In this document: piece after piece, positions 13,084-23,877 of the stretch
Position numbering within the stretch: position 1 is the first letter of the stretch
How the letters are laid out: every line of letters begins with the position of its first letter
Assembly: GCA_002691265.1 (NCBI GenBank)
Contig: NZHJ01000016.1
Coordinates: forward strand, 1-30,741
From: Flavobacteriaceae bacterium
GTDB taxonomy: Bacteria > Bacteroidota > Bacteroidia > Flavobacteriales > Flavobacteriaceae
Reading direction: 5' to 3'
DNA: 30,741 nucleotides
Position numbers and translations under genes: made by a program
The notes under the pieces: generated by a model
Told to the model about the DNA's origin: nothing
Database searches by the model: none
The model's input: only the letters and a program-made list of their open reading frames with translations

Positions 13084-14121
13084 TTACGACTTATTCGCAA
13101 GTTGGCCACAGGCCGCATCAATATCCTGACCCCTAGATTTTCTGATAGTTGCCTTAATCTTATTTGAATCTAAGGTTTTAACATATTTAGCAATTACATC
13201 ATCTGATGCTTGAACAAAACCTGGATCATCAATACTATTATATTGAATAAGATTAACTTTACTTGGAATTCTTTTACAAAGTTTGACCAAAGCTGCAATA
13301 TCTTCATCACGATCATTAATGTCCTTCCAAACAACATATTCATAAGTTATAATTTTTTTTGTTTTATCATACCAATATTTCAAGGCCTCTTCTAATTCAA
13401 TTAGATTCATTTTATCATTAAATGGCATAATTGAGGTTCTTTTTTCATCTATCGCAGAATGTAAAGAAACTGCAAGTTTAAATTTCACTCCCTGATCAGC
13501 AATTTTTTTTATCATTTTTGGAATTCCTGAGGTCGAAACAACTATTCTTTTTGGAGATATTCCCAAACCTGATTTTGAAGTGATTTTTCCAATTGAACTC
13601 AAAACATTATTATAATTCATTAATGGTTCACCCATACCCATAAATACAATATTTGTTAGGGGTCTTTGAAAATGCTCAATACTTTGCTGATGGATTAAAA
13701 CTACCTGATCATAAATTTCATCAGGATTTAGATTTCTCATTCTTTTAAGTTTTGCGGTAGCACAAAATTTACAGTTTAGACTACAACCAACCTGTGAGGA
13801 GACACATGCGGTGATTCTTTTTTTTGTTGGGATTAAGACACACTCGACAATATATCCATCAAAAAGCATAATAGCATTTTTTATTGTACCATCAGAGCTT
13901 TTTTGCATTCTATGAACCTTTATAAAATTTATAACAAAATTATCCTTGAGAAATTTTATTAAACTTTCAGGTAGATTGGACATTTCATCAAAGCTATGAG
14001 CTGATTTTTTCCAAATCCAATGATAAATTTGATTAGCTCTAAATGATTTAAAGGAATTGTTAGTTAAAATTTCTTTTAACTCATCTTCGTTAATTGATCT
14101 AATGTCCTTTTTAGAAGACAA
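13084..14121 (-). CDS. rlmN: Dual-specificity rRNA/tRNA methyltransferase RlmN
   Basis: RlmN is a radical-SAM enzyme that puts a C2-methyl on A2503 of 23S rRNA and on A37 of some tRNAs, affecting peptidyl-transferase function and accuracy. The 345-residue protein has the radical-SAM cluster motif CSLNCKFC (Cys113, Cys117, Cys120), MGMGEPLMN in the SAM-binding part, VVSTSGIPKMI, and the C-terminal catalytic Cys338 in DAACGQL. The N-terminal accessory domain (about 1-95) is present. Length is normal. It follows queA by 4 nt, fitting a cotranscribed pair of RNA-modification genes. Confidence 0.96.
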   Translation of the reverse strand: MSSKKDIRSINEDELKEILTNNSFKSFRANQIYHWIWKKSAHSFDEMSNLPESLIKFLKDNFVINFIKVHRMQKSSDGTIKNAIMLFDGYIVECVLIPTKKRITACVSSQVGCSLNCKFCATAKLKRMRNLNPDEIYDQVVLIHQQSIEHFQRPLTNIVFMGMGEPLMNYNNVLSSIGKITSKSGLGISPKRIVVSTSGIPKMIKKIADQGVKFKLAVSLHSAIDEKRTSIMPFNDKMNLIELEEALKYWYDKTKKIITYEYVVWKDINDRDEDIAALVKLCKRIPSKVNLIQYNSIDDPGFVQASDDVIAKYVKTLDSNKIKATIRKSRGQDIDAACGQLANKS

Positions 14122-14125
14122 AATT

Positions 14126-15175
14126 TTAAATGATTAGCATTGAGTCTCCATAACTAAAGAAATTATATTTTTCCTTAATCGCTTCTTCATAGGCTTTCTT
14201 AATAAAATCATTACCTAAAAAGGCAGATGTCATCATCAATAGTGTTGATTTAGGCATATGAAAATTGGTTATCATTGAATTAGCAATTGAAAAATCGTAA
14301 GGAGGAAAAATAAATTTATTTGTCCATCCATCATATTCATTTAGGGTTCCCATTGAAGATACGGAGCTTTCAATTGCTCTCATCACAGTTGTTCCAACTG
14401 CACATATTCGTTTTTTATTTGCCAGTCCTTTATTAATAATAGCTGCAGAATCACCTTCGATAATTGCCCTCTCACTATCCATCTTGTGCTTTGATAAATC
14501 TTCTACCTCTACAGGGTAAAATGAACCAAGACTAACATGTAAAGTAACTTCTGAGAAATTTACACCTTTTATTTCAAGTCTTTTCATGAGATGTTTTGAA
14601 AAGTGTAATCCAGCTGTTGGAGCTGCAACAGCTCCTTCATTTTTGGCATAAATAGTCTGATATCTATCCTTATCCTCAGGCTCAACTTCTCTATTTATAT
14701 ATTTTGGTAAGGGGGTCTCACCTAAATCAATTAAAAGTTTTCTAAAATCTTCATAACCAACATCACAAAGAAACCTCAAAGTTCGCCCCCTAGATGTTGT
14801 ATTATCAATAACTTCTGCAACAAGTGTATCATCATTTCCAAAATACAATTTATTTCCTATTCTGATTTTTCTAGCTGGATCAACTAGCACATCCCATAAC
14901 CTCTGTTCAGCACTTAGTTCACGGAGTAAAAAAACTTCAATTCTAGCTCCAGTTTTTTCTTTGTTTCCGTACAAACGAGCTGGAAATACTTTTGTATTAT
15001 TTAGTACTATTACATCGTTCTCATCAAAGTATTCAATCATATCTTTAAACTGCCTATGTTGAATTGAATAGTCTTTTCTATCTATCACCATCAATCTAGC
15101 TTCATCTCGATTTTTATTTGGATATTCAGCAACTAATTCTTTAGGAAGTTCGTAATTGAAATCTGAAAGTTTCAT
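14126..15175 (-). CDS. queA: S-adenosylmethionine:tRNA ribosyltransferase-isomerase QueA
   Basis: QueA transfers and isomerises the ribosyl group of SAM onto 7-aminomethyl-7-deazaguanine in tRNA to form epoxyqueuosine at the wobble position of Asp, Asn, His and Tyr tRNAs. The 349-residue protein shows [17 protein letters not shown] at the start, [46 protein letters not shown] and the C-terminal [14 protein letters not shown] second in-frame ATG lies two codons upstream at 15181 (MRMKLSDF), but MKLSDF matches the family start. A strong flavobacterial-type promoter lies just upstream, so queA-rlmN may be transcribed independently of the aromatic genes as well. Confidence 0.96.
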
Positions 15176-15204
15176 TCTCATATTAAAGTGGGGTTTGAAA
15201 GCTG

Positions 15205-15236
15205 CAAATATACAATGTGGAAATAGGGGATGTCAA
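15205..15236 (-). promoter_or_regulatory. Promoter upstream of queA (TTGACA-type -33 and TATATTTG -7)
   Basis: The minus strand reads TTG (15234-15236, within TTGACA), 21 nt, then TATATTTG (15205-15212). This matches the Bacteroidetes primary sigma consensus TTG-N17-23-TAnnTTTG exactly. It lies in the only sizeable gap inside the aroA-queA segment, 30 nt before the queA ATG. Confidence 0.6.
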
Positions 15237-15247
15237 GTAATTTGACA
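15231..15247. repeat. Inverted repeat overlapping the queA -33 element
   Basis: TGTCAA (15231-15236) and TTGACA (15242-15247) form a perfect 6-bp inverted repeat around 5 nt. It covers the -33 box of the queA promoter, as an operator would. It could also be a chance repeat or a poor hairpin after aroA; there is no T run after it. Confidence 0.4.
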
Positions 15248-15250
15248 AAA

Positions 15251-16465
15251 TTATTTAGAATATATAGCTATTCTCTCTAAATCTGACCAAAAGGAACTGT
15301 AGGATTTACTTACAACTTTTGGATCTTTGATTATAATTTTGACTTTAGTCGCCAAACAAGCAAATGACATTGCCATTCTGTGATCATCATATGTTTCTAT
15401 TACTACATTTCGTTTTAAAAAATCAACATTATCAAAAGAAATGGAATCATCGGTAATTATAACTTTTAGATTAAACTTGCTTAACTCCTTCTTTAATGCT
15501 AAAAGTCTATCAGTTTCTTTAATTTTTAATGTGTGTAGACCGGTTAAATTACATTTAATACCAAGACCCAAACAAGTGACACAAATTGTTTGTGCTAAAT
15601 CTGGGTTTGAAGTTAAATCAAATGAAAATTTATCAGTATTCGATTCGAGTTTTTTTAAAATTACAAGATCATCTTTATATGTTGTTTTAACCCCAAACGA
15701 TTTGTAAATGTCTGCAACTTTAGAATCACCTTGTAAACTTTTAAAAGAAAATTTTGAAAGCTTCAAAGTATAACCAATTTTTGCTAGTGCAACTACTGAA
15801 TAGAAATAAGAGGCTGAAGACCAGTCAGACTCAATGTAATGTTTTTTAGATTCAATTTTCTGAAGTTCACAAATAGATATTTGGTTATATGTTGTAGTAA
15901 TTTCAACCCCAAGTTTTTTTAGTAAAGAAATGGTCATGTCAATATATGGCTTGGATGTCTCCCTACCTGTTAATTGTATTTTCAATCCACCAGAAATCTT
16001 AGGGGCGATTAATAATAAAGATGATATATATTGACTACTTGTTGAAGAATCAATAATCAAATTCTTACTAATTAATTCGGATGGTTTAATTAGAAGAGGT
16101 GGATAACCTTCCTTATCTATATAATGAATTGAGGCCCCAATTTCACGAAGAGAGTCCACTAGTATTTTAATTGGTCGATTATGCATTCTTTGGGAACCTC
16201 TTAATTCTATCTCTTTTTTAGTGGTTAATGAAAAGTATGAGGTTAAAAATCTCATTGCCGTTCCTGCATGACCAATATCAATAGTACTTGATTTAGAACT
16301 CAGAGCTTTTAATAAATAATTTGTGTCATCTGAATTTGATATATTTTCCAAAGACAACTTTTTAAAAAGCGAGCTTAAAATTAATAACCTATTAGATTCA
16401 CTTTTAGATCCTGGAATAACAATATGAGCATCTTCAAGTTGAGCACTCTTCAATGAAAGATTCAT
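15251..16465 (-). CDS. aroA: 3-phosphoshikimate 1-carboxyvinyltransferase (EPSP synthase)
   Basis: AroA joins PEP to shikimate-3-phosphate, the sixth step of the shikimate pathway. The 404-residue cytosolic protein has GSKSESNR (19-26, substrate-binding Lys/Ser/Arg), GHAGTAMRF (65-73), SSQYISSLL, SDWSSASYF, KETDRLLALKKEL and YDDHRMAMSF near the C-terminus. The Gly-Ala of the usual NAGTAMR motif is preserved as HAGTAMR, where His replaces the common Asn. The length is slightly shorter than the usual 420-430 residues but no domain is missing. Its ATG overlaps the preceding stop by one base. Confidence 0.95.
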   Translation of the reverse strand: MNLSLKSAQLEDAHIVIPGSKSESNRLLILSSLFKKLSLENISNSDDTNYLLKALSSKSSTIDIGHAGTAMRFLTSYFSLTTKKEIELRGSQRMHNRPIKILVDSLREIGASIHYIDKEGYPPLLIKPSELISKNLIIDSSTSSQYISSLLLIAPKISGGLKIQLTGRETSKPYIDMTISLLKKLGVEITTTYNQISICELQKIESKKHYIESDWSSASYFYSVVALAKIGYTLKLSKFSFKSLQGDSKVADIYKSFGVKTTYKDDLVILKKLESNTDKFSFDLTSNPDLAQTICVTCLGLGIKCNLTGLHTLKIKETDRLLALKKELSKFNLKVIITDDSISFDNVDFLKRNVVIETYDDHRMAMSFACLATKVKIIIKDPKVVSKSYSSFWSDLERIAIYSK

Positions 16466-16791
16466 TAGTCAAGTTTTTGATTTGAATGATGTCTATCATG
16501 ATCTCGTTTTGCTTTCATATTTAGTCTATTGTCGAACGATGTTTGAAGGTCAACTCCTGTTTGATTTGCAAGACATAACAAAACGAATAAAACATCCGAA
16601 AGTTCAGCAGCTAAATCAACTTCTTTGTCGGATTCTTTAAAACTTTGTTCTCCATATTGACGGGAAATTATACGAGCTACTTCACCAACTTCTTCAGTAA
16701 GTTGTGCCATATTTGTCAATTCATTAAAATATCTTACCCCGTGTTTTTTTATCCAATTATCAACTTTTAACTGTAAATTTTTTATTTCCAT
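16465..16791 (-). CDS. MazG-like nucleotide pyrophosphohydrolase
   Basis: The 108-residue protein is an all-alpha NTP pyrophosphohydrolase of the MazG-like superfamily. The metal-binding pattern EExxE...ExxD is clear: Glu33, Glu34 and Glu37 (LTEEVGEVAR), then Glu63 and Asp66 (AAELSDVLF). Members hydrolyse nucleoside triphosphates to monophosphates and are thought to clear non-canonical nucleotides; the substrate here cannot be read from sequence. The single-domain form is common in Bacteroidetes and typically sits next to dtd, as here. It has a one-base overlap with aroA downstream. Confidence 0.88.
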   Translation of the reverse strand: MEIKNLQLKVDNWIKKHGVRYFNELTNMAQLTEEVGEVARIISRQYGEQSFKESDKEVDLAAELSDVLFVLLCLANQTGVDLQTSFDNRLNMKAKRDHDRHHSNQKLD

Positions 16792-16825
16792 TTTATGAAT
16801 TTTTGTTAGCTGTTTTCTAAAGTGT

Positions 16826-17266
16826 TTAGTTTTCTAAGATTATTGTTACCGGGCCATCATTAATCAAATTAATTTTCATGTCAGCGCCAAATTTTCCTGT
16901 CTTAATTTTTGTATTTATATATGTTTGTAATTCTTTTATAAAACTATTATAAATTTTAATAGTATTTTCTGGTTTGGCAGCTTTAATAAAGCTTGGGCGA
17001 TTTCCTTTTTTTGTGTCTGCATACAAAGTAAATTGACTAACCAATAAAATTTCTCCTTTAATATCATTTATATTTTTATTCATTTTTCCAAATTCGTCAT
17101 TGAAAATTCTAAGTTTTGAAACTTTACTTGCTATTTTGTTCAAAAAACTTTCATTATCATTTGCAGAAATTCCAATGAATATTACCATTCCGTATCCAAT
17201 AGAAGAATATATCTTTTTATCAATTTTTAAATTTGATTCTATTACCCTTTGAATAACTAATTTCAA
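16826..17266 (-). CDS. dtd: D-aminoacyl-tRNA deacylase
   Basis: Dtd removes D-amino acids (classically D-Tyr, also Gly on tRNA-Ala) from misacylated tRNA. The 146-residue protein has the two signature motifs: SQFTLYAD (77-84) and NDGPVT (136-141) with the Gly-cisPro element that rejects L-aminoacyl groups. Length is normal. It is 1 nt from the rsgA stop and lies within the operon headed by the Phe/Tyr attenuator, a suggestive location for an enzyme guarding tRNA-Tyr. No odd features. Confidence 0.96.
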   Translation of the reverse strand: MKLVIQRVIESNLKIDKKIYSSIGYGMVIFIGISANDNESFLNKIASKVSKLRIFNDEFGKMNKNINDIKGEILLVSQFTLYADTKKGNRPSFIKAAKPENTIKIYNSFIKELQTYINTKIKTGKFGADMKINLINDGPVTIILEN

Positions 17267-17267
17267 T

Positions 17268-18197
17268 TTATCTATGTTTTAAATTATCATCATTTATTAT
17301 TTGAATATAGCTATCATACCTAGATTTTGAAATTTCTCCAGACTTTACTTTTTCTTTCACATAGCATTTAGGCTCGTTTAAATGTATACAATTATTAAAC
17401 TTACATTTTGATTTAACATTAAAAAATTCAGGAAAAAAATTACTAATTTCATCAATATTATAATTCACTAATCCAAATCCTTTTATCCCTGGTGTATCTA
17501 TAAGTTTAATGTTATTTTCAAGATCATAAAGTTCCGCATAAGTGGTTGTATGCTTACCTTGTGAATGTTGATTAGAAATATTACCTACTTTTAAATTTAA
17601 AGCACCATCTATTGCATTAATTATTGACGTTTTACCCACCCCGGAATGTCCTCCTAACATTATGGTTTTATTTGATATTTTATTCTCCAATTCTTTAATA
17701 CCTTTACCTGAATTTGCGCATATTTTAATTGTTTCATAACCAATACTATCATAAATATTAATCAGGGAATTTAATGAATCTTCATCTGCTTCATCATATA
17801 AATCGCACTTATTAAAAACTAGCAGAGTTTTGATTGAATACGCTTCAGCACTTACTAAAAATCTATCAATAAAACTAATAGTTGTAATCGGGTTTTTTAA
17901 AGTAATAACCAGTAAAAGAAGATCTATATTTGATGCTAAAATATGTGTCTGCTTTGATAGATTAACAGACTTTCTTAAAATATAGTTTCTTCTTTCAAAT
18001 ATTTTTTTAATAATACCAACTTCTTGCTGATCATGGTCTTCAACATCAAATTCAACAAAATCTCCAACTACCACTGGGTTTGTACTATTTATATTTTCCA
18101 GTCTAAGTTTCCCTTTAATCTTACAATCAAATGTATCTCCGGTTTCTGATTTAACCGTGTACCATGAACCTGTTGATTTGTAGACTAATCCTTTCAA
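17268..18197 (-). CDS. rsgA: Small ribosomal subunit biogenesis GTPase RsgA
   Basis: RsgA is a late-stage 30S maturation GTPase. The 309-residue protein has an N-terminal OB fold (about 1-70), a circularly permuted GTPase domain in which NKCD (129-132, G4) precedes the P-loop GGHSGVGKT (182-190, G1) and DTPG (234-237, G3), and a C-terminal zinc module (Cys265, Cys270, His272, Cys278). The His in GHSGVGK is typical of the family. It starts 6 nt after the stop of the DAHP synthase gene. Everything expected is present. Confidence 0.96.
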   Translation of the reverse strand: MKGLVYKSTGSWYTVKSETGDTFDCKIKGKLRLENINSTNPVVVGDFVEFDVEDHDQQEVGIIKKIFERRNYILRKSVNLSKQTHILASNIDLLLLVITLKNPITTISFIDRFLVSAEAYSIKTLLVFNKCDLYDEADEDSLNSLINIYDSIGYETIKICANSGKGIKELENKISNKTIMLGGHSGVGKTSIINAIDGALNLKVGNISNQHSQGKHTTTYAELYDLENNIKLIDTPGIKGFGLVNYNIDEISNFFPEFFNVKSKCKFNNCIHLNEPKCYVKEKVKSGEISKSRYDSYIQIINDDNLKHR

Positions 18198-18203
18198 ATA
18201 TGT

Positions 18204-19286
18204 TTAATTCTTTAATATTTTTTCTTGGTGATTTATTGATTCTTGATGAATTGCCTTGAAAACTTTTAAAATAAATTCTTCACTTAGGTTTTTTTCATCA
18301 CCCTCTAAAATCATTTTCCCTAAAATTTCATTCCATCTTTTAGACTGAAGTACAGCAACATTATTTTTTTTCTTTAAAAGACCAATTTTTTCTGCAACTT
18401 TCATTCTATTACCCAAGATATTTATTAATTGATTGTCATGAACATTAATCTGTGCTCTTAAATTATCTAAATTATCTAAGTATGCTTCATCATCATTTGT
18501 GACACGTCTGATTGTAAGATTTTTAGTCAATTCTTTTAACTTTTCAGGGGTTATTTGCTGTTTGGCATCACTCCATGCATTATCTGGATCATTATGTGAT
18601 TCAATCATCAATCCATCATAATTTAAGTCTAGTGCAGTTTGACATAAATCAAAAATAAGATCTCTTCTTCCTGCTATGTGTGAGGGGTCCAGAATCAATG
18701 GCAAATCAGGAAGTCTTCTTTGAAGATCAATAGCAATTTGCCACTCTGGATTATTTCTGTATTTTGTTTTTTCATAAGTTGAAAACCCTCTATGTATTGC
18801 TCCAATATTTTTAATATTTGAAGAAAAAAATCTTTCAATTGCTCCTAACCATAAGGATAAATCAGGGTTTACAGGATTTTTAATTAGAATAATTTTTTCA
18901 GTACCTCGAAGTGCTTCCGCGATTTCTTGAACGATAAATGGGCTTACAGTCGTCCTAGCTCCAATCCACAAAATATCAATTTCGTTTTTAAGTGCTAAGT
19001 CAACATGGTTAGCATTAGCAACCTCTGTAGTAGTAAGAATTCCTGTCTCTTTTTTTGCTTTTTTCATCCACTGTAATGCTAAAGATCCAACACCTTCAAA
19101 ATTTCCAGGTCTTGTTCTTGGCTTCCAAATACCTGCTCTATAAACTATTGTATCTGAATCTTTAAGTTGGTGGGCAATATCTAAAACTTGATTCTCAGTT
19201 TCGGCACTACATGGTCCTGCAATTAAAAGTGGGTGTGAAAGACTCATATCATCCAACCATTTTCTCAAATTTTTACTATTCTTCAT
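18204..19286 (-). CDS. Bifunctional DAHP synthase / chorismate mutase
   Basis: The 360-residue protein fuses a KDO8PS/DAHP-type synthase (about 1-260) to a C-terminal AroQ-type chorismate mutase (about 265-350). The first domain has AGPCSAE (23-29), KPRTRPGNFEG (55-65), ILTTTEV, LDPSHIAGRRD and the SHNDPDNAWSDAKQQ stretch. The mutase shows LRAQINVHDNQLINILGNRMKVAEKIGLLKK. It makes the first committed compound of aromatic synthesis and also converts chorismate to prephenate, so entry and Phe/Tyr branch point are joined. This fusion is typical of Bacteroidetes and explains why the PheA and TyrA here lack mutase domains. Literature symbols vary (aroG/aroF/pheA type), so none is given. Confidence 0.94.
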   Translation of the reverse strand: MKNSKNLRKWLDDMSLSHPLLIAGPCSAETENQVLDIAHQLKDSDTIVYRAGIWKPRTRPGNFEGVGSLALQWMKKAKKETGILTTTEVANANHVDLALKNEIDILWIGARTTVSPFIVQEIAEALRGTEKIILIKNPVNPDLSLWLGAIERFFSSNIKNIGAIHRGFSTYEKTKYRNNPEWQIAIDLQRRLPDLPLILDPSHIAGRRDLIFDLCQTALDLNYDGLMIESHNDPDNAWSDAKQQITPEKLKELTKNLTIRRVTNDDEAYLDNLDNLRAQINVHDNQLINILGNRMKVAEKIGLLKKKNNVAVLQSKRWNEILGKMILEGDEKNLSEEFILKVFKAIHQESINHQEKILKN

Positions 19287-19289
19287 ATT

Positions 19290-20144
19290 CTAATTTATTC
19301 CTTTTAAAATTGTTTTTATATAATTAGTTGACTTTAATTGAGATTCAACTTCATCGAATCTATCTTTTTTAATCAAAGAATTTATATATGCTAAGTTTTC
19401 AATGTAATCATCTAATGATTTAATAATATTTTTTTTATTATCCTCTAAAATATCTGTCCACATTTCAGGTGAACTTTTTGCGAGTCTAACTGTTGATTCA
19501 AAACCACTTCCAGCCATATCAAAAATATTCTTTTCATTTTTTTCTTCATCCATTACGGTTTTACCTAACATGAAAGAACTTATATGGGATAGATGTGAAA
19601 CGTAAGCAATATGCTTATCATGAGAATCAGAGTCCATATAGCCAATTTTCATTTTCATTAAATTAAATATTTTTAGTCCAAGCTCAAGTATTGATTTATC
19701 TGTTTTATCCTTATCACATATAATTATATTTTTTCCTTCGAATAAGCCTTCATGAGCAGCCGCGGGTCCTGAGAGTTCTGTTCCAGCGATCGGGTGAGTG
19801 GCTAGAAAATTTTGACGATTAGGATGTTCTTTTACAATTTGACAAATACTTTTTTTTGTGGAACCAAAATCGATAACTAAGCTGTTATTATTCACAGATT
19901 TTAAAACTATAGGCAGAATATTAAGTATGGATTTAACAGGAACTGAGATTACAATAATATCTGGATTATTTATTTTTAAAAGTTCAGATGTTTCATCGAT
20001 TAACTTTAACTCAAGAGCTTTCTGAAGGTGAATTTCTGACTTATCTATTCCAATAATTGTAGATTTTGGAAATAACTTTCTCATATCAATGGCAAAGCTG
20101 CCACCAATAAGACCAACACCAATCACATAAATTTTCTTTTTCAT
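19290..20144 (-). CDS. tyrA: Prephenate dehydrogenase
   Basis: TyrA oxidatively decarboxylates prephenate to 4-hydroxyphenylpyruvate, the tyrosine branch. The 284-residue protein starts with a Rossmann GVGLIGGSFA motif (9-18), followed by IDFGSTKKSI, ATHPIAGTELSGPAAAHEGLFEGK (catalytic His and substrate-binding segment) and a helical C-terminal dimerisation region with YVSHLSHISSFML. There is no chorismate mutase or ACT domain, so control probably comes from the attenuator and other enzymes. Its ATG overlaps the aminotransferase stop (ATGA), indicating coupling. Confidence 0.94.
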   Translation of the reverse strand: MKKKIYVIGVGLIGGSFAIDMRKLFPKSTIIGIDKSEIHLQKALELKLIDETSELLKINNPDIIVISVPVKSILNILPIVLKSVNNNSLVIDFGSTKKSICQIVKEHPNRQNFLATHPIAGTELSGPAAAHEGLFEGKNIIICDKDKTDKSILELGLKIFNLMKMKIGYMDSDSHDKHIAYVSHLSHISSFMLGKTVMDEEKNEKNIFDMAGSGFESTVRLAKSSPEMWTDILEDNKKNIIKSLDDYIENLAYINSLIKKDRFDEVESQLKSTNYIKTILKGIN

Positions 20145-21283
20145 AATCTTGAAATTGCTTTCTTAATATTGATTTCAGAATTACAGAGTGAAATCCTTAC
20201 ATATCCTTCACCATTTGATCCAAAAATACTACCAGGTGCAATAAAAACACCTTTTTCATTTAAAAGACTATCCACATAATCTATAGAGGTTTTATTACTT
20301 TTAATCTTAGCCCAAACAAACATTCCCGATGAAGATCTTGAAAAATCACAATTTAATTTATCAGCTAATTCCCATACTAATTTTCTTCTTTTTGAATATT
20401 CAAAGTTCAAGTTTTTAAACCAATCCTTTGATTGACTTAATGCTGAGACAGCACCCATTTGTAAAGGAAAAAACATACCTGAATCAACATTACTTTTTAC
20501 CTTTAAAATATTTGAAATGTATTTAGGATTTGCCACAGCAAAGCCTAATCTCCATCCAGCCATGTTGAAACTTTTACTTAAAGAATTTAACTCAATACAA
20601 ATATCTCTCGCTCCGTTAACATTCATAATACTTAATGGATTATTATTTAAAATGAAACTATATGGATTATCATTTACAATTAAAATATTATTAGACTTCG
20701 CAAAATTTATAATTTCAGAAAAATACTCATGGGATGCTACTGTTCCTGTTGGCATATGAGGATAATTAATCCACATTATCTTAACACTAGATAAATCAAG
20801 TTTAGTTAATTGCTCCAAGTCAGGCAGCCAGTTATTTTTTTCATTTAAATCATAATATATAATTTCATTTCCGATCAACTTTGTTATTGATGAATATGTT
20901 GGATATCCGGGATTTGGTATTAAGACTTTATCATCTTCAGAAAGAAAAGACATTGAAATATGAAAAATTCCCTCCTTGCTTCCAATCAATGGTAAAATTT
21001 CAGATTGATAATTTAAATCACAATTATAATGTAACTTATAAAAATTTGATATTTCCTTTCTAAATTTTTCAACTCCGATATAGCTTTGATATTTATGCGC
21101 TCCAGCAACATTTAACGAATGTTTTAATTTTTTTATTACCGGAGTTGGAGGAGATAAATCTGGACTCCCAATTCCAAGGTTGATAATATCTTCTCCAGAG
21201 TCAATTAAAGACTTTACCTCTCTCAGTTTGGAGGAAAAATAATACTCACTTAATCCTTCTATTCTTTTTGAAAATTCAATCAT
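20141..21283 (-). CDS. PLP-dependent aminotransferase, fold type I
   Basis: The 380-residue protein is a class I/II aminotransferase. It has the Schiff-base Lys237 in SLSKSFNMAGWRLG, Asn173 (NYPHMPTG), Asp205 (VNDNPYS), and a C-terminal GYVRISLC with the carboxylate-binding Arg. The position between pheA and tyrA points to transamination in Phe/Tyr synthesis (phenylpyruvate and 4-hydroxyphenylpyruvate, or prephenate), but sequence alone does not separate these from LL-DAP or alanine/aspartate specificity. An ATG at 21304 would add seven residues and overlap pheA by 29 nt; MIEFSKRIEGL at 21283 matches the family start and gives an 8-nt overlap. Confidence 0.88.
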   Translation of the reverse strand: MIEFSKRIEGLSEYYFSSKLREVKSLIDSGEDIINLGIGSPDLSPPTPVIKKLKHSLNVAGAHKYQSYIGVEKFRKEISNFYKLHYNCDLNYQSEILPLIGSKEGIFHISMSFLSEDDKVLIPNPGYPTYSSITKLIGNEIIYYDLNEKNNWLPDLEQLTKLDLSSVKIMWINYPHMPTGTVASHEYFSEIINFAKSNNILIVNDNPYSFILNNNPLSIMNVNGARDICIELNSLSKSFNMAGWRLGFAVANPKYISNILKVKSNVDSGMFFPLQMGAVSALSQSKDWFKNLNFEYSKRRKLVWELADKLNCDFSRSSSGMFVWAKIKSNKTSIDYVDSLLNEKGVFIAPGSIFGSNGEGYVRISLCNSEINIKKAISRL

Positions 21284-22103
21284 CTTTAGAGTTTTTGTAT
21301 TCACCTAATACTTTAAAATCTTTAGCCATAATTTCAATTATGGACTTAGCCTTAAAATAATCCTCTAATTTATCAAAAGTGACATCAACAAAAAATGAGT
21401 ATCTCCAAGGAGTTTGAATCTTAGGCATTGATTGAATCTTAGTTAAATTTAACTTACAATCACTTAAAACATTTAAAATAGCTGCCAAGCTTCCCCTTTT
21501 ATGATCCAATTCAAATTTTACTGAGGCCTTATTAAAATTTAAGTTTTTAGTTGGACCTTTTTTTTGAAGAATAACAAATCTTGTTTGATTCTTTTTTATA
21601 GTTTGAATATTATCATTTATAATATCCAGCCCATAAATTTTTGAGGCTAAATCACTTGCAATTGCACCTAAACCCTTTATTTTATTTTCAGAAATTTTCT
21701 TTGCTACCTGAGCAGTATCCTTATCCTCGATTAAAACAATATCCACATTATCTTTAAAAAAATCTCTGCATTGAAGAAGAGCCATGGGATGAGACTGCAC
21801 TTCTTTTATATCTTCAATTGATTGACCTTTTAAGGCAATCAAATTATGTGTTATTTGAAGATAATATTCACCTACAATATTTACTCGATATTCATCAATC
21901 AATGCATAATTAGGAATAATAGATCCAGCAGTAGAATTTTCAATTGCCATGATAGCATAATCTATTTTATCATTAAATAAATTTAAAATCAATTCTTCGA
22001 AGGAAAGATATTCAATCAAATTAATATCTTCTCCAAAATAGTTATTTGCAACTATGTGATGAAATGAACCCTTTATTCCCTGAATACCTATGTTTTTTTT
22101 CAT
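21276..22103 (-). CDS. pheA: Prephenate dehydratase
   Basis: PheA converts prephenate to phenylpyruvate, the Phe branch. The 275-residue protein has the periplasmic-binding-protein-like catalytic domain (GIQGIKGSFHH at 6-16, AIENSTAGSI, SHPMALLQC, and the catalytic Thr in NQTRF at 172-176) and a C-terminal ACT domain (about 195-270, HKRGSLAAILNVLSDCKLNLTKI), which in this family binds Phe for feedback inhibition. No chorismate mutase domain, as expected given the fusion downstream. A longer frame opens at ATG 22133 but that codon is inside the attenuator terminator and its extra residues are not conserved; the ATG at 22103, directly after the T run, is the start. Confidence 0.95.
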   Translation of the reverse strand: MKKNIGIQGIKGSFHHIVANNYFGEDINLIEYLSFEELILNLFNDKIDYAIMAIENSTAGSIIPNYALIDEYRVNIVGEYYLQITHNLIALKGQSIEDIKEVQSHPMALLQCRDFFKDNVDIVLIEDKDTAQVAKKISENKIKGLGAIASDLASKIYGLDIINDNIQTIKKNQTRFVILQKKGPTKNLNFNKASVKFELDHKRGSLAAILNVLSDCKLNLTKIQSMPKIQTPWRYSFFVDVTFDKLEDYFKAKSIIEIMAKDFKVLGEYKNSKDD

Positions 22104-22131
22104 AAAAAAAAAGTCTCGAAATTTCGAGACC
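22104..22131 (-). terminator. Intrinsic terminator of the pheA attenuator
   Basis: On the minus strand an 18-nt perfect palindrome (22113-22130, GTCTCGAAATTTCGAGAC) forms a 7-bp stem with an AATT loop, extendable by one G-U pair. It is followed by nine T (22104-22112) that end at the pheA ATG. There is no T run on the plus-strand side, so it acts only on pheA-direction transcription. Being before rather than after a gene marks it as an attenuator. Confidence 0.9.
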
Positions 22132-22169
22132 ATAAATAAATTTGATTAGTAATATATAACCACAGCCTC
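22126..22169 (-). promoter_or_regulatory. Antiterminator pairing of the pheA attenuator
   Basis: GAGGCTGTGG (22169-22160, starting in the leader stop codon) can pair with TTATGGTCTC (22135-22126), which includes the 5' arm of the terminator. The 10-bp helix has five Watson-Crick and five G-U pairs with no bulge. It excludes the terminator stem. A ribosome at the leader stop would cover the upstream strand, while one stalled at the Tyr/Phe codons would leave it free. Confidence 0.65.
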
Positions 22170-22228
22170 TACATCCTTTTTAAATAAAAGAAGTAATATA
22201 AGTTAAAGTTGTAGTTAAAAAATAGCAT
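22169..22228 (-). CDS. Phe/Tyr leader peptide of the aromatic amino acid operon
   Basis: A 19-codon ORF reads MLFFNYNFNLYYFFYLKRM and stops at TAG. Five Phe (3, 4, 8, 13, 14) and four Tyr (6, 11, 12, 15) make up nearly half of it, with a dense cluster YYFFY just before the end. The start is preceded by TAAAAATG, an A-rich context favoured by Bacteroidetes that lack Shine-Dalgarno sites. It lies 66 nt upstream of pheA and directly before mutually exclusive antiterminator and terminator structures. The arrangement is that of classic amino-acid operon attenuators (pheL, pheST, trp, his in enterobacteria). AT-rich DNA yields Phe and Tyr codons by chance, but the position, length and adjoining structures argue for function. 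The peptide itself is expected to have no further role. Confidence 0.8.
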   Translation of the reverse strand: MLFFNYNFNLYYFFYLKRM

Positions 22229-22284
22229 TTTTAATGATTGGTTGGTCTAATGTAAATAATATTTATTAAAAAAAAGAAAATTAT

Positions 22285-23877
22285 CTAAAGAATATAATCT
22301 GTAGATACAAAGTTAGAATTATCAGAACTTAACAAATCCTTAATTATCTTATTATTTTCATTATTATCCTTTGAGGCAACAAACGTACGAATTGAAAATG
22401 ATCTTAGTGCATCATGAACACTTAATGTACTGAATGCAGAATCTTTTCTTCCTGTAAATGGATAAATATCGGGGCCTCGTTGACATGAGCTATTTATATT
22501 GACCCTACAAACTAAATTCACCAAAGTGTCAATTAGGGGTCCAAGCTTCTTTGTTTCCTTTCCGAAAATACTAACCTGTTGTCCGTAATTTGATTCTGCC
22601 ATGTCATCAAGAGGTTCATTAATATCTTTAAATGAAATTATTGGAATCACTGGCCCAAACTGCTCTTCTTTATAAACACTCATATCTTTAGTAACAGGGT
22701 ATAAAATAGCTGGATATACATAATTTTCACATTGAATTCCACCTTTAGGATTAACTATCTTAGCACCCTTCTGTTTTGCATCAGTAATTAGTGATTGTAT
22801 GTATTCGGGTTTATTTGGTTCTGGTAGCGGAGTTAACTTAACGTTGTCCTCCCATGGATTTCCGTATTTTAGTTTATCAACAGCCTTAGAAAATCTGTTG
22901 AGAAATTCATCTCTAATTTCATCATGAACATAAATTATCTTAAGAGCGGTACATCTTTGTCCGTTATAAGAAAGGGATCCGTTTATACATTCCTGAATCG
23001 TTAAGTCTAAGTCGGCATCTGGTAATATAATCGCTGGATTTTTTGCCTCAAGACCCAAGACTAATCTTAGTCTATTTTTCTTTGGATGAGATTCTTGCAA
23101 GGAATTAGCAGATGAACTATGTCCTATAAGTGCCAAGACATTTACTTTACCAGATTCCATAATAGGGGTTGCTAAAACCCTACCTCTTCCAAATAAAATA
23201 TTTACTACACCGGGTGGAAAATGTTTTTTGAAAGCTTCCATTAATGGAGAAATTAATAGCACACCGTGTTTAGCTGGCTTGAATATCACTGTATTACCCA
23301 TAATTAAAGCTGGAATTAAAAGACAAAATGTCTCATTCAACGGATAATTATATGGTCCTAAACAAAGAACCACACCAAGTGGTCCTCTACGAATGTGTGC
23401 ATTAATACCGCTGTGTTTTTGAAATTTTGCAGAATCTCTATCAATTTTCTTGTAAGCTTCAATTGTATCGTATATATAATCTACGGTTCTGTCAAATTCT
23501 TTTTTAGAATCAGTATAGTTTTTTCCAATCTCCCACATTAATAACTTTACTACAATATCTCTTTTCTGCTTCATTTCTTCAACGAAGTTTTCCATTGCAT
23601 TAATACGATCTACAACCTTCATCGTTGGCCATAAACCCTTTCCTTTATCAAATGCATTACAAGCAGAGTCTAGCGCCTCAATAGCTTCATCCTTATCTAA
23701 ACTTGGTATTTCACCAAGCAAAGTAGGCTTATATTCAGGTGTTGATGATATTGTAGAATAAACAGGTGAAAATTCACCATCCCATTTAACCAAACTTCCA
23801 TTAATCAGATAGTTATCTTGCTTTATCTTTTCAGTTATCTCAAACTCTTGCGGTATCTGCCTAAATTTAAATTCCAT
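22285..23877 (-). CDS. gapN: NADP-dependent non-phosphorylating glyceraldehyde-3-phosphate dehydrogenase
   Basis: The 530-residue protein is an aldehyde dehydrogenase with catalytic Cys309 (NGQRCTA), Glu277 (GLEAKNPAI), Asn177 (GPYNYPLNE) and the NAD(P)-binding FKPAKHG (199-205). Length, the N-terminal [12 protein letters not shown] and [11 protein letters not shown] fit the GapN group, which oxidises glyceraldehyde-3-P directly to 3-phosphoglycerate and yields NADPH without ATP. Specificity within aldehyde dehydrogenases is inferred from this similarity. The frame opens 12 codons earlier at 23913, but [12 protein letters not shown] at 23877 matches the family start. It lies just upstream of the pheA attenuator on the same strand, so read-through would also be subject to attenuation. 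Confidence 0.88.
22308..22335 (-). promoter_or_regulatory. Candidate promoter for the pheA leader, inside the gapN 3' end
   Basis: The minus strand reads TTG (22333-22335), 17 nt, then TAACTTTG (22308-22315), an exact match to TTG-N17-23-TAnnTTTG. Initiation just downstream would give a leader RNA of about 75-80 nt before the leader peptide ATG. The motif overlaps gapN codons, so it may be coincidental. Confidence 0.4.

Follow-up and report, generated by a model that had tools for sequence, protein, structure and literature searches.

This locus raises the question of whether the short stretch in front of pheA, on the minus strand of the window (the whole stretch of DNA that was analysed, 30,741 nt), is a switch through which translation of a leader sets transcription of the genes for phenylalanine and tyrosine synthesis. 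The preliminary description had read it as a Phe/Tyr attenuator, and conservation, covariation, geometry, and predicted folds all supported that reading. As judged from the DNA and its comparison with relatives, we consider with a probability of about 0.93 that the region acts on the pheA (Phe/Tyr) operon as a ribosome-mediated transcription attenuator of the trp type, and its leader very probably turns on the Phe/Tyr pathway genes when these amino acids are short. The comparison of relatives proposed in the preliminary description recovered a short F/Y-rich ORF, a covarying alternative pairing, and a T run. The type of switch is classical, and the locus is a well-supported further case of a known mechanism; what is new here is the codon content, the four-region anatomy with its covariation, the spacing, the class-wide range, and the tandem forms.

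Parts of the locus in front of pheA

The first gene that the element would control is pheA (21276..22103, minus strand), which encodes a prephenate dehydratase of 275 aa (Pfam PDT, 186 bits). Co-directional genes with gaps of ≤70 nt follow at 13084..21304 on the same strand, as defined by ORFs and Pfam matches: aminotransferase, prephenate dehydrogenase, DAHP synthase-chorismate mutase, rsgA, D-Tyr-tRNA deacylase, MazG-like, EPSP synthase, queA, and rlmN. Enzymes that make Phe and Tyr are thus among the genes 3′ of the pheA leader, and from the short gaps it is plausible that transcription continues to rlmN. Upstream, a 542-aa ORF on the same strand, which we take to be aldehyde dehydrogenase-like, ends at 22285. 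In a neighbouring operon, approximately 105 nt lie between ilvD and the ORF upstream of it. The genome assembly comprises 1.36 Mb and is 78.5% complete, with a contamination of 5.18%.

All parts of the element lie on the minus strand. The leader ORF (22169..22228, MLFFNYNFNLYYFFYLKRM) consists of 19 codons and a TAG, and its predicted translation from the ATG at 22228 is M L F F N Y N F N L Y Y F F Y L K R M; the end-product codons are clustered, with five Phe and four Tyr (9 of 19 codons), and the preliminary description of this ORF was right to the base. In the minimum free energy fold, region 1 (22205..22217), within the leader ORF, forms the 5′ arm of a predicted 1:2 protector or pause hairpin. 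Region 2, the 5′ strand of the antiterminator (GAGGCTGTGG, 22160..22169), has as its first base the last base of the leader TAG. Region 3 (TTATGGTCTC, 22126..22135) is common to the antiterminator and the 5′ arm of the terminator, as indicated by pairing, covariation, and masked folds. Between the leader ORF and the first structural gene, the sequence and a consensus scan revealed a predicted intrinsic terminator, the hairpin of which (regions 3:4) is a perfect 18-nt palindrome (GTCTCGAAATTTCGAGAC, 22113..22130), followed by a run of nine T (22104..22112) that adjoins the pheA ATG (22103–22101). The coordinates previously given for the palindrome and the T run were confirmed.

The assignment of a terminator depends on where PheA begins. 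The pheA frame is open from an upstream ATG at 22133 (a 285-aa ORF), and if translation started there, the hairpin would lie inside the coding sequence and there would be no terminator. The same in-frame ATG was found in 9 of 17 same-genus loci, but the upstream ATG was out of frame in four of the 17 and missing in four others. We rejected this start, present in frame in 9 of 17 loci only, as very improbable, and retained the terminator directly in front of the ATG.

Folding of the region from 22240 to 22104 gave z = −3.49, with 0 of 200 shuffles as good. The predicted fold contains a 12-bp hairpin (22217–22205 with 22169–22157), which overlaps the leader ORF and would bury the antiterminator in the absence of a ribosome. 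The preliminary description had stated that there was no separate pause hairpin, and this prediction contradicts it. Its 10-bp pairing between GAGGCTGTGG, starting in the stop codon, and the 5′ arm of the terminator was reproduced, but G-U pairs account for 5 of the 10, and the helix is weaker than had been implied. The energies of the 2:3 helix (−9.1 kcal/mol) and the terminator (−8.8 kcal/mol) are about equal.

Conservation, spacing, and alternative pairing in relatives

PheA homologues were present in 104 of the 149 genomes searched, giving 105 pheA matches. A detector that demanded a terminator, a second pairing partner of the terminator 5′ arm, and an ORF ending near this partner was applied to up to 300 nt upstream of pheA at 90 loci, including that of the window. 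The full set of parts, with an F/Y-rich ORF, was detected in 79 of the 90 regions and in 0 of 900 shuffles, the detector favouring F/Y-rich ORFs in real and shuffled sequences alike. In front of other ORFs, a Phe/Tyr-rich leader was found in 0 of 234 controls as run, corrected to 0 of 233 because one control ORF was the second pheA copy of the window's own genome; this copy had been missed because its start codon was taken 30 nt upstream, at an earlier in-frame ATG, showing that the detector depends on the start codon chosen. One control ORF had a terminator, an alternative pair, and an ORF without Phe/Tyr-rich codons.

Among the 11 loci missed by the detector, four (L007, L010, L022, and L078) have the element by eye, the causes being a GTG start, a contig end, a long loop, and a one-base insertion. 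By eye, no element was seen in the other 7 of the 90 loci (L030, L070, L071, L077, L079, L080, and L083), three of them in genomes of ~0.6 Mb. A further 13 loci were read by eye only: the element was seen in L125, L128, and L130 but not in the other 10, of which seven belong to family f5, with a divergent PheA. The by-locus reading left out 2 of the 105 matches, a partial gene of genome G129 and the second PheA copy of the window's genome (G000, contig 11:38564–39388). The latter is 100% identical to the first and has the same upstream ORF start, perhaps reflecting a duplicated or strain-mixed stretch of the assembly. In family f16, with endosymbiont-sized genomes of 0.6 Mb, pheA was present and no attenuator was seen by eye (L077, L079, L080, L126, and L127).

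These counts bear on the simplest alternative, namely that the hairpin only terminates the upstream gene and that the F/Y-rich ORF arose by chance. TTT and TAT codons do arise easily in A+T-rich DNA, and the 542-aa ORF on the same strand ends shortly before the leader. Nevertheless, the shuffles and the other-gene controls, none of which contained the set of parts, led us to reject a chance ORF beside a terminator, and conservation of the ORF, the spacing, and both helices argues in the same direction. With the covariation of regions 2 and 3 described below and a possible promoter box between the two ORFs, we give this alternative almost no weight.

The composition of the detected leaders was consistent with Phe and Tyr being the amino acids that are read. 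Phe and Tyr made up 24% and 16% of leader residues, respectively, the corresponding values for long ORFs at these loci being 4.6% and 3.9%, and all 79 ORFs had a stretch of six codons with at least four for Phe/Tyr. Tyr was present in every one of the 79 leaders, and a Trp codon in 36. The 474 critical codons (six per leader) included 280 Phe, 143 Tyr, and 21 Trp codons. In 79 of 79 leaders, 8–17 nt (14 nt in 32) separated the final Phe/Tyr/Trp codon of the dense stretch from region 2, and relative to the start of region 2 the leader stop codon ended at positions ranging from 4 nt upstream to 29 nt downstream. A distance of 8–17 nt is roughly how far a ribosome extends 3′ of its A site. With this footprint, a ribosome stalled at the last aromatic codon would end at about the start of region 2 and leave it free, whereas one that had reached the stop codon would cover region 2.

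Such conserved features, namely codon content and codon-to-region-2 spacing, are also informative about what reads the leader. A trans-acting factor or a tRNA, in the manner of a T-box, could in principle take the place of the ribosome, with nothing specific in its favour, but it is these features that are conserved, and no Rfam family, T-box included, reached its threshold in the window or in eight related loci; we regard this alternative as scarcely credible. Membership in the Rfam family RF01859 (Phe_leader) was rejected at 18.3 bits against a cut-off of 55, as was the trpB motif at 21.7 bits against a cut-off of 59.

The predicted folds followed the expected position of the ribosome. In masked folding, the ribosome-free state gave 1:2 and 3:4 in 79 of 79 leaders, masking of the upstream part (the stalled state) gave the antiterminator 2:3 in 78 of 79, and a ribosome at the stop codon gave the terminator 3:4 in 79 of 79, with region 2 wholly covered in 78 of 79. 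The 2:3 count arises partly by construction, because region 2 was located through its complementarity to region 3. The 1:2 count is free of this construction; compared with shuffled leader ORFs, the 1:2 energy had a mean z of −3.01, with 60 of 79 leaders below −2, 261 of 4740 shuffles as good, and z = −2.1 at the window locus.

Regions 2 and 3, which make up the antiterminator and share the 5′ arm of the mutually exclusive terminator, covary across lineages. Because a MAFFT alignment offset region 2 by a few bases between lineages, we used an alignment-free swap test rather than counting base pairs on that alignment. Arms were grouped into 12 types according to their five initial bases, a few of these types being register shifts of one another. 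When arms were permuted among types, the observed sum of pairing was matched by 0 of 500 permutations, and this held for all 200 draws. At the level of single sequences, the own arm ranked above ≥90% of the arms of foreign types in only 58 of 79.

The position of the hairpin suggests another possibility. The preliminary description had called the geometry very tight, and this holds for the genus of the window, where a run of T7–T10 adjoins the pheA ATG in 17 of 17 loci, including that of the window. Among the 79 detected leaders, however, this is one end of a range, the stem ending 6–94 nt before the aligned pheA start. The terminator hairpin, with its stem ending 9 nt before the pheA AUG in the window, might also hide the start codon and control initiation of translation as well as, or rather than, termination. 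The adjoining T runs of the genus and the 42 leaders with a gap of 6–13 nt are compatible with such a role. On the other hand, the other 37 leaders have the same parts with a gap of 15–94 nt, and the T run is typical of intrinsic termination. Start hiding as a general explanation appears unlikely, and we retain transcription termination as the main outcome; in the genus of the window, where the hairpin is so near the start codon, a translation block is possible as an addition.

A candidate −7 promoter box (TACATTAG, 22247..22254, minus strand) lies upstream of the leader, with one mismatch to the Bacteroidota consensus TAnnTTTG (PMC9723704). In the relatives, the form TAnnTTWG, which was picked post hoc after the data had been seen, occurred in the 60 nt preceding the leader ATG in 67 of 79 cases, compared with 400 of 3950 base-shuffled controls, and its distance to the ATG was 16–19 nt in 40 of the 67. 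The exact TAnnTTTG was found in 16 of 79 leaders versus 5.4% of shuffles, and five of its six positions were matched in 72 of 79 leaders but also in 66.5% of shuffles. The box is therefore a possible promoter element, with a weak and partly post hoc match.

Proposed mechanism and known attenuators

From these parts, we infer that the promoter is used, that the leader is translated, and that stalling, termination, read-through, and an amino-acid response occur. RNA polymerase would start just upstream of the 19-codon leader. With ample supplies of charged tRNA-Phe and tRNA-Tyr, the ribosome would reach the stop codon and cover region 2; the terminator 3:4 would then form, and transcription would stop at the nine T before the pheA ATG. 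When either charged tRNA is scarce, the ribosome would stall on YYFFY, masking region 1 and leaving region 2 free, and region 2 would pair with region 3 ahead of the synthesis of region 4, so that the polymerase would read into pheA. If the leader were not translated, 1:2 would form and the terminator would win again. The mechanism needs a ribosome close behind RNA polymerase, and the element is therefore a direct test of coupling in Bacteroidota. The boundaries of this RNA element are clear, the position of the expected stall can be stated, and the tested loci gave no Rfam match; the element would account for how a flavobacterium with a small genome, in which the switch has been kept, controls a central pathway.

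Ribosome-mediated attenuation is textbook knowledge for enterobacteria. The E. coli trp attenuator has the same regions 1–4 and the same 1:2, 2:3, and 3:4 logic but senses Trp. The enterobacterial pheA (pheL) attenuator likewise has a Phe-rich leader before pheA and an alternative antiterminator and terminator with the same logic; the leader of the window differs in adding Tyr (and Trp in those relatives with a Trp codon) and in preceding a gene set with prephenate dehydrogenase and DAHP synthase-chorismate mutase among its members. In the enterobacterial ilvGMEDA and thr leaders, one leader senses more than one amino acid, and a two-amino-acid response is therefore not new in principle, although those leaders sense other amino acids.

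The preliminary description knew of no example in Bacteroidetes, which overrated the novelty, because cases in Flavobacteriaceae had been outlined in the 2021 transcriptome study of F. psychrophilum (PMC9723704). According to its relevant passages, there are strong clues that operons for amino acids are preceded by leader peptides acting in attenuation, and pheA (like hisG) has in front of it a structured 5′ element that recurs in other Flavobacteriaceae genera and is absent from Rfam (PMC9723704). Judged by this description, the F. psychrophilum pheA element is very probably the same as ours; the passages concerned describe neither its sequence, codons, and helices nor its occurrence outside the family (PMC9723704). 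A survey of 2010 stated, in the part relevant here, that to its authors' knowledge leader peptides were unshown outside Proteobacteria and Actinobacteria, and added Firmicutes (PMC2965389). The pheA motif of Actinobacteria (PMC2864571) is likewise a candidate structured RNA named for pheA, and it is listed there for Actinobacteria. As for priority, the first report may predate 2021. The abstract of Vitreschak et al. 2004 reportedly mentions some attenuators in Bacteroidetes/Chlorobi.

Range across Bacteroidia and related leaders

With the strict detector, 76 of 80 named genome records, mostly of Flavobacteriaceae, had the full set of parts. These records included a few not titled Flavobacteriaceae, one of them titled Rhizobium, and many Flavobacterium species, with F. 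psychrophilum not named among them. Of the four misses, the element was present by eye in L217, L237, and L253 but not in L180. A loosened detector was applied to a class-wide sample, comprising 39 of the 40 matched genomes other than G000 (G266 was left out), and found the element in 24 of 39 and, outside the order, in 21 of 35, including the weak cases L137, L159, L164, and L171; among the 15 not found, L160 and L168 look present by eye. The loosened detector was positive in 1 of 780 shuffles and in 1 of 275 ORFs, the latter being the pheA of L154 with a late start, and the ORF control became 0 of 273 once two pheA copies (L154 and the second of G000) were taken out. The leaders of four of the 80 named records recur identically among the initial loci, and the upstream stretch of one class locus is also that of a named record; with overlaps removed, approximately 174 distinct examples were detected.

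For the other classes of the phylum, we used a simpler scan for a short ORF with at least four F/Y/W in six codons within 700 nt, of which a terminator was not a part, and accepted none in 28 loci (of 77 matched genomes outside the class). Two of the 28 had been flagged and were rejected, as the ORFs lay 500–542 nt upstream and resemble the QueA C-terminus. Taken together, the detections within the class and their lack in these 28 loci suggest what looks like a trait of the class Bacteroidia, with patchy absence.

Some loci contained more than one unit. In the last 500 nt before pheA in one locus (L125/L173, G112:C25:16352–19552), three tandem attenuator-like units were found, with short Phe-rich ORFs (MKHITENKAFSFEAFFFNRKTQA, MNNLVSTFRFFGFFFFRKEGAMS, and MNQNTQQNFSFFGFFFFKWKSEAVD), each followed by its own terminator and none containing Tyr. 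The sample of this family held only one other genome, in which there was no match. Two F/Y-rich leader units with two terminators precede pheA in L159 (G279) and L171 (G250), and two tandem F/Y leaders do so in L164 (G202), where the terminator search found no second terminator.

Short His-rich ORFs precede hisG in 9 of 9 loci (L255–L263; a HisG match was found in 9 of the 40 genomes searched). They have at least three His in six codons and lie 292–347 nt before the HisG domain, and were identified by ORF and codon content alone. These leaders of relatives resemble the pheA leader in being short and amino-acid-rich, with His instead of Phe/Tyr. None of the 21 genomes examined from the window's genus, all of them incomplete, gave a HisG match, a hint that histidine synthesis has been lost in this genus.

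A joint reading of these results, which we put forward tentatively and at somewhat below even odds, is that ribosome-mediated attenuation, inherited from early in the class, routinely governs aromatic (and histidine) synthesis throughout Bacteroidia. In that case, ribosome and RNA polymerase would be tightly coupled in Bacteroidia, mostly without Shine-Dalgarno sequences; tandem arrays of two or three attenuators would be successive amino-acid checks for the polymerase; and the small-genome genus of the window would have a terminator pressed against the start codon, which may block translation too.

In two loci lacking the leader, L030 and L180, GTTCGAAGAACGAAATAAAAT occurs upstream of pheA three and four times, respectively. 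The L180 record is titled Gelidibacter, yet Gelidibacter mesophilus (L183) keeps the leader.
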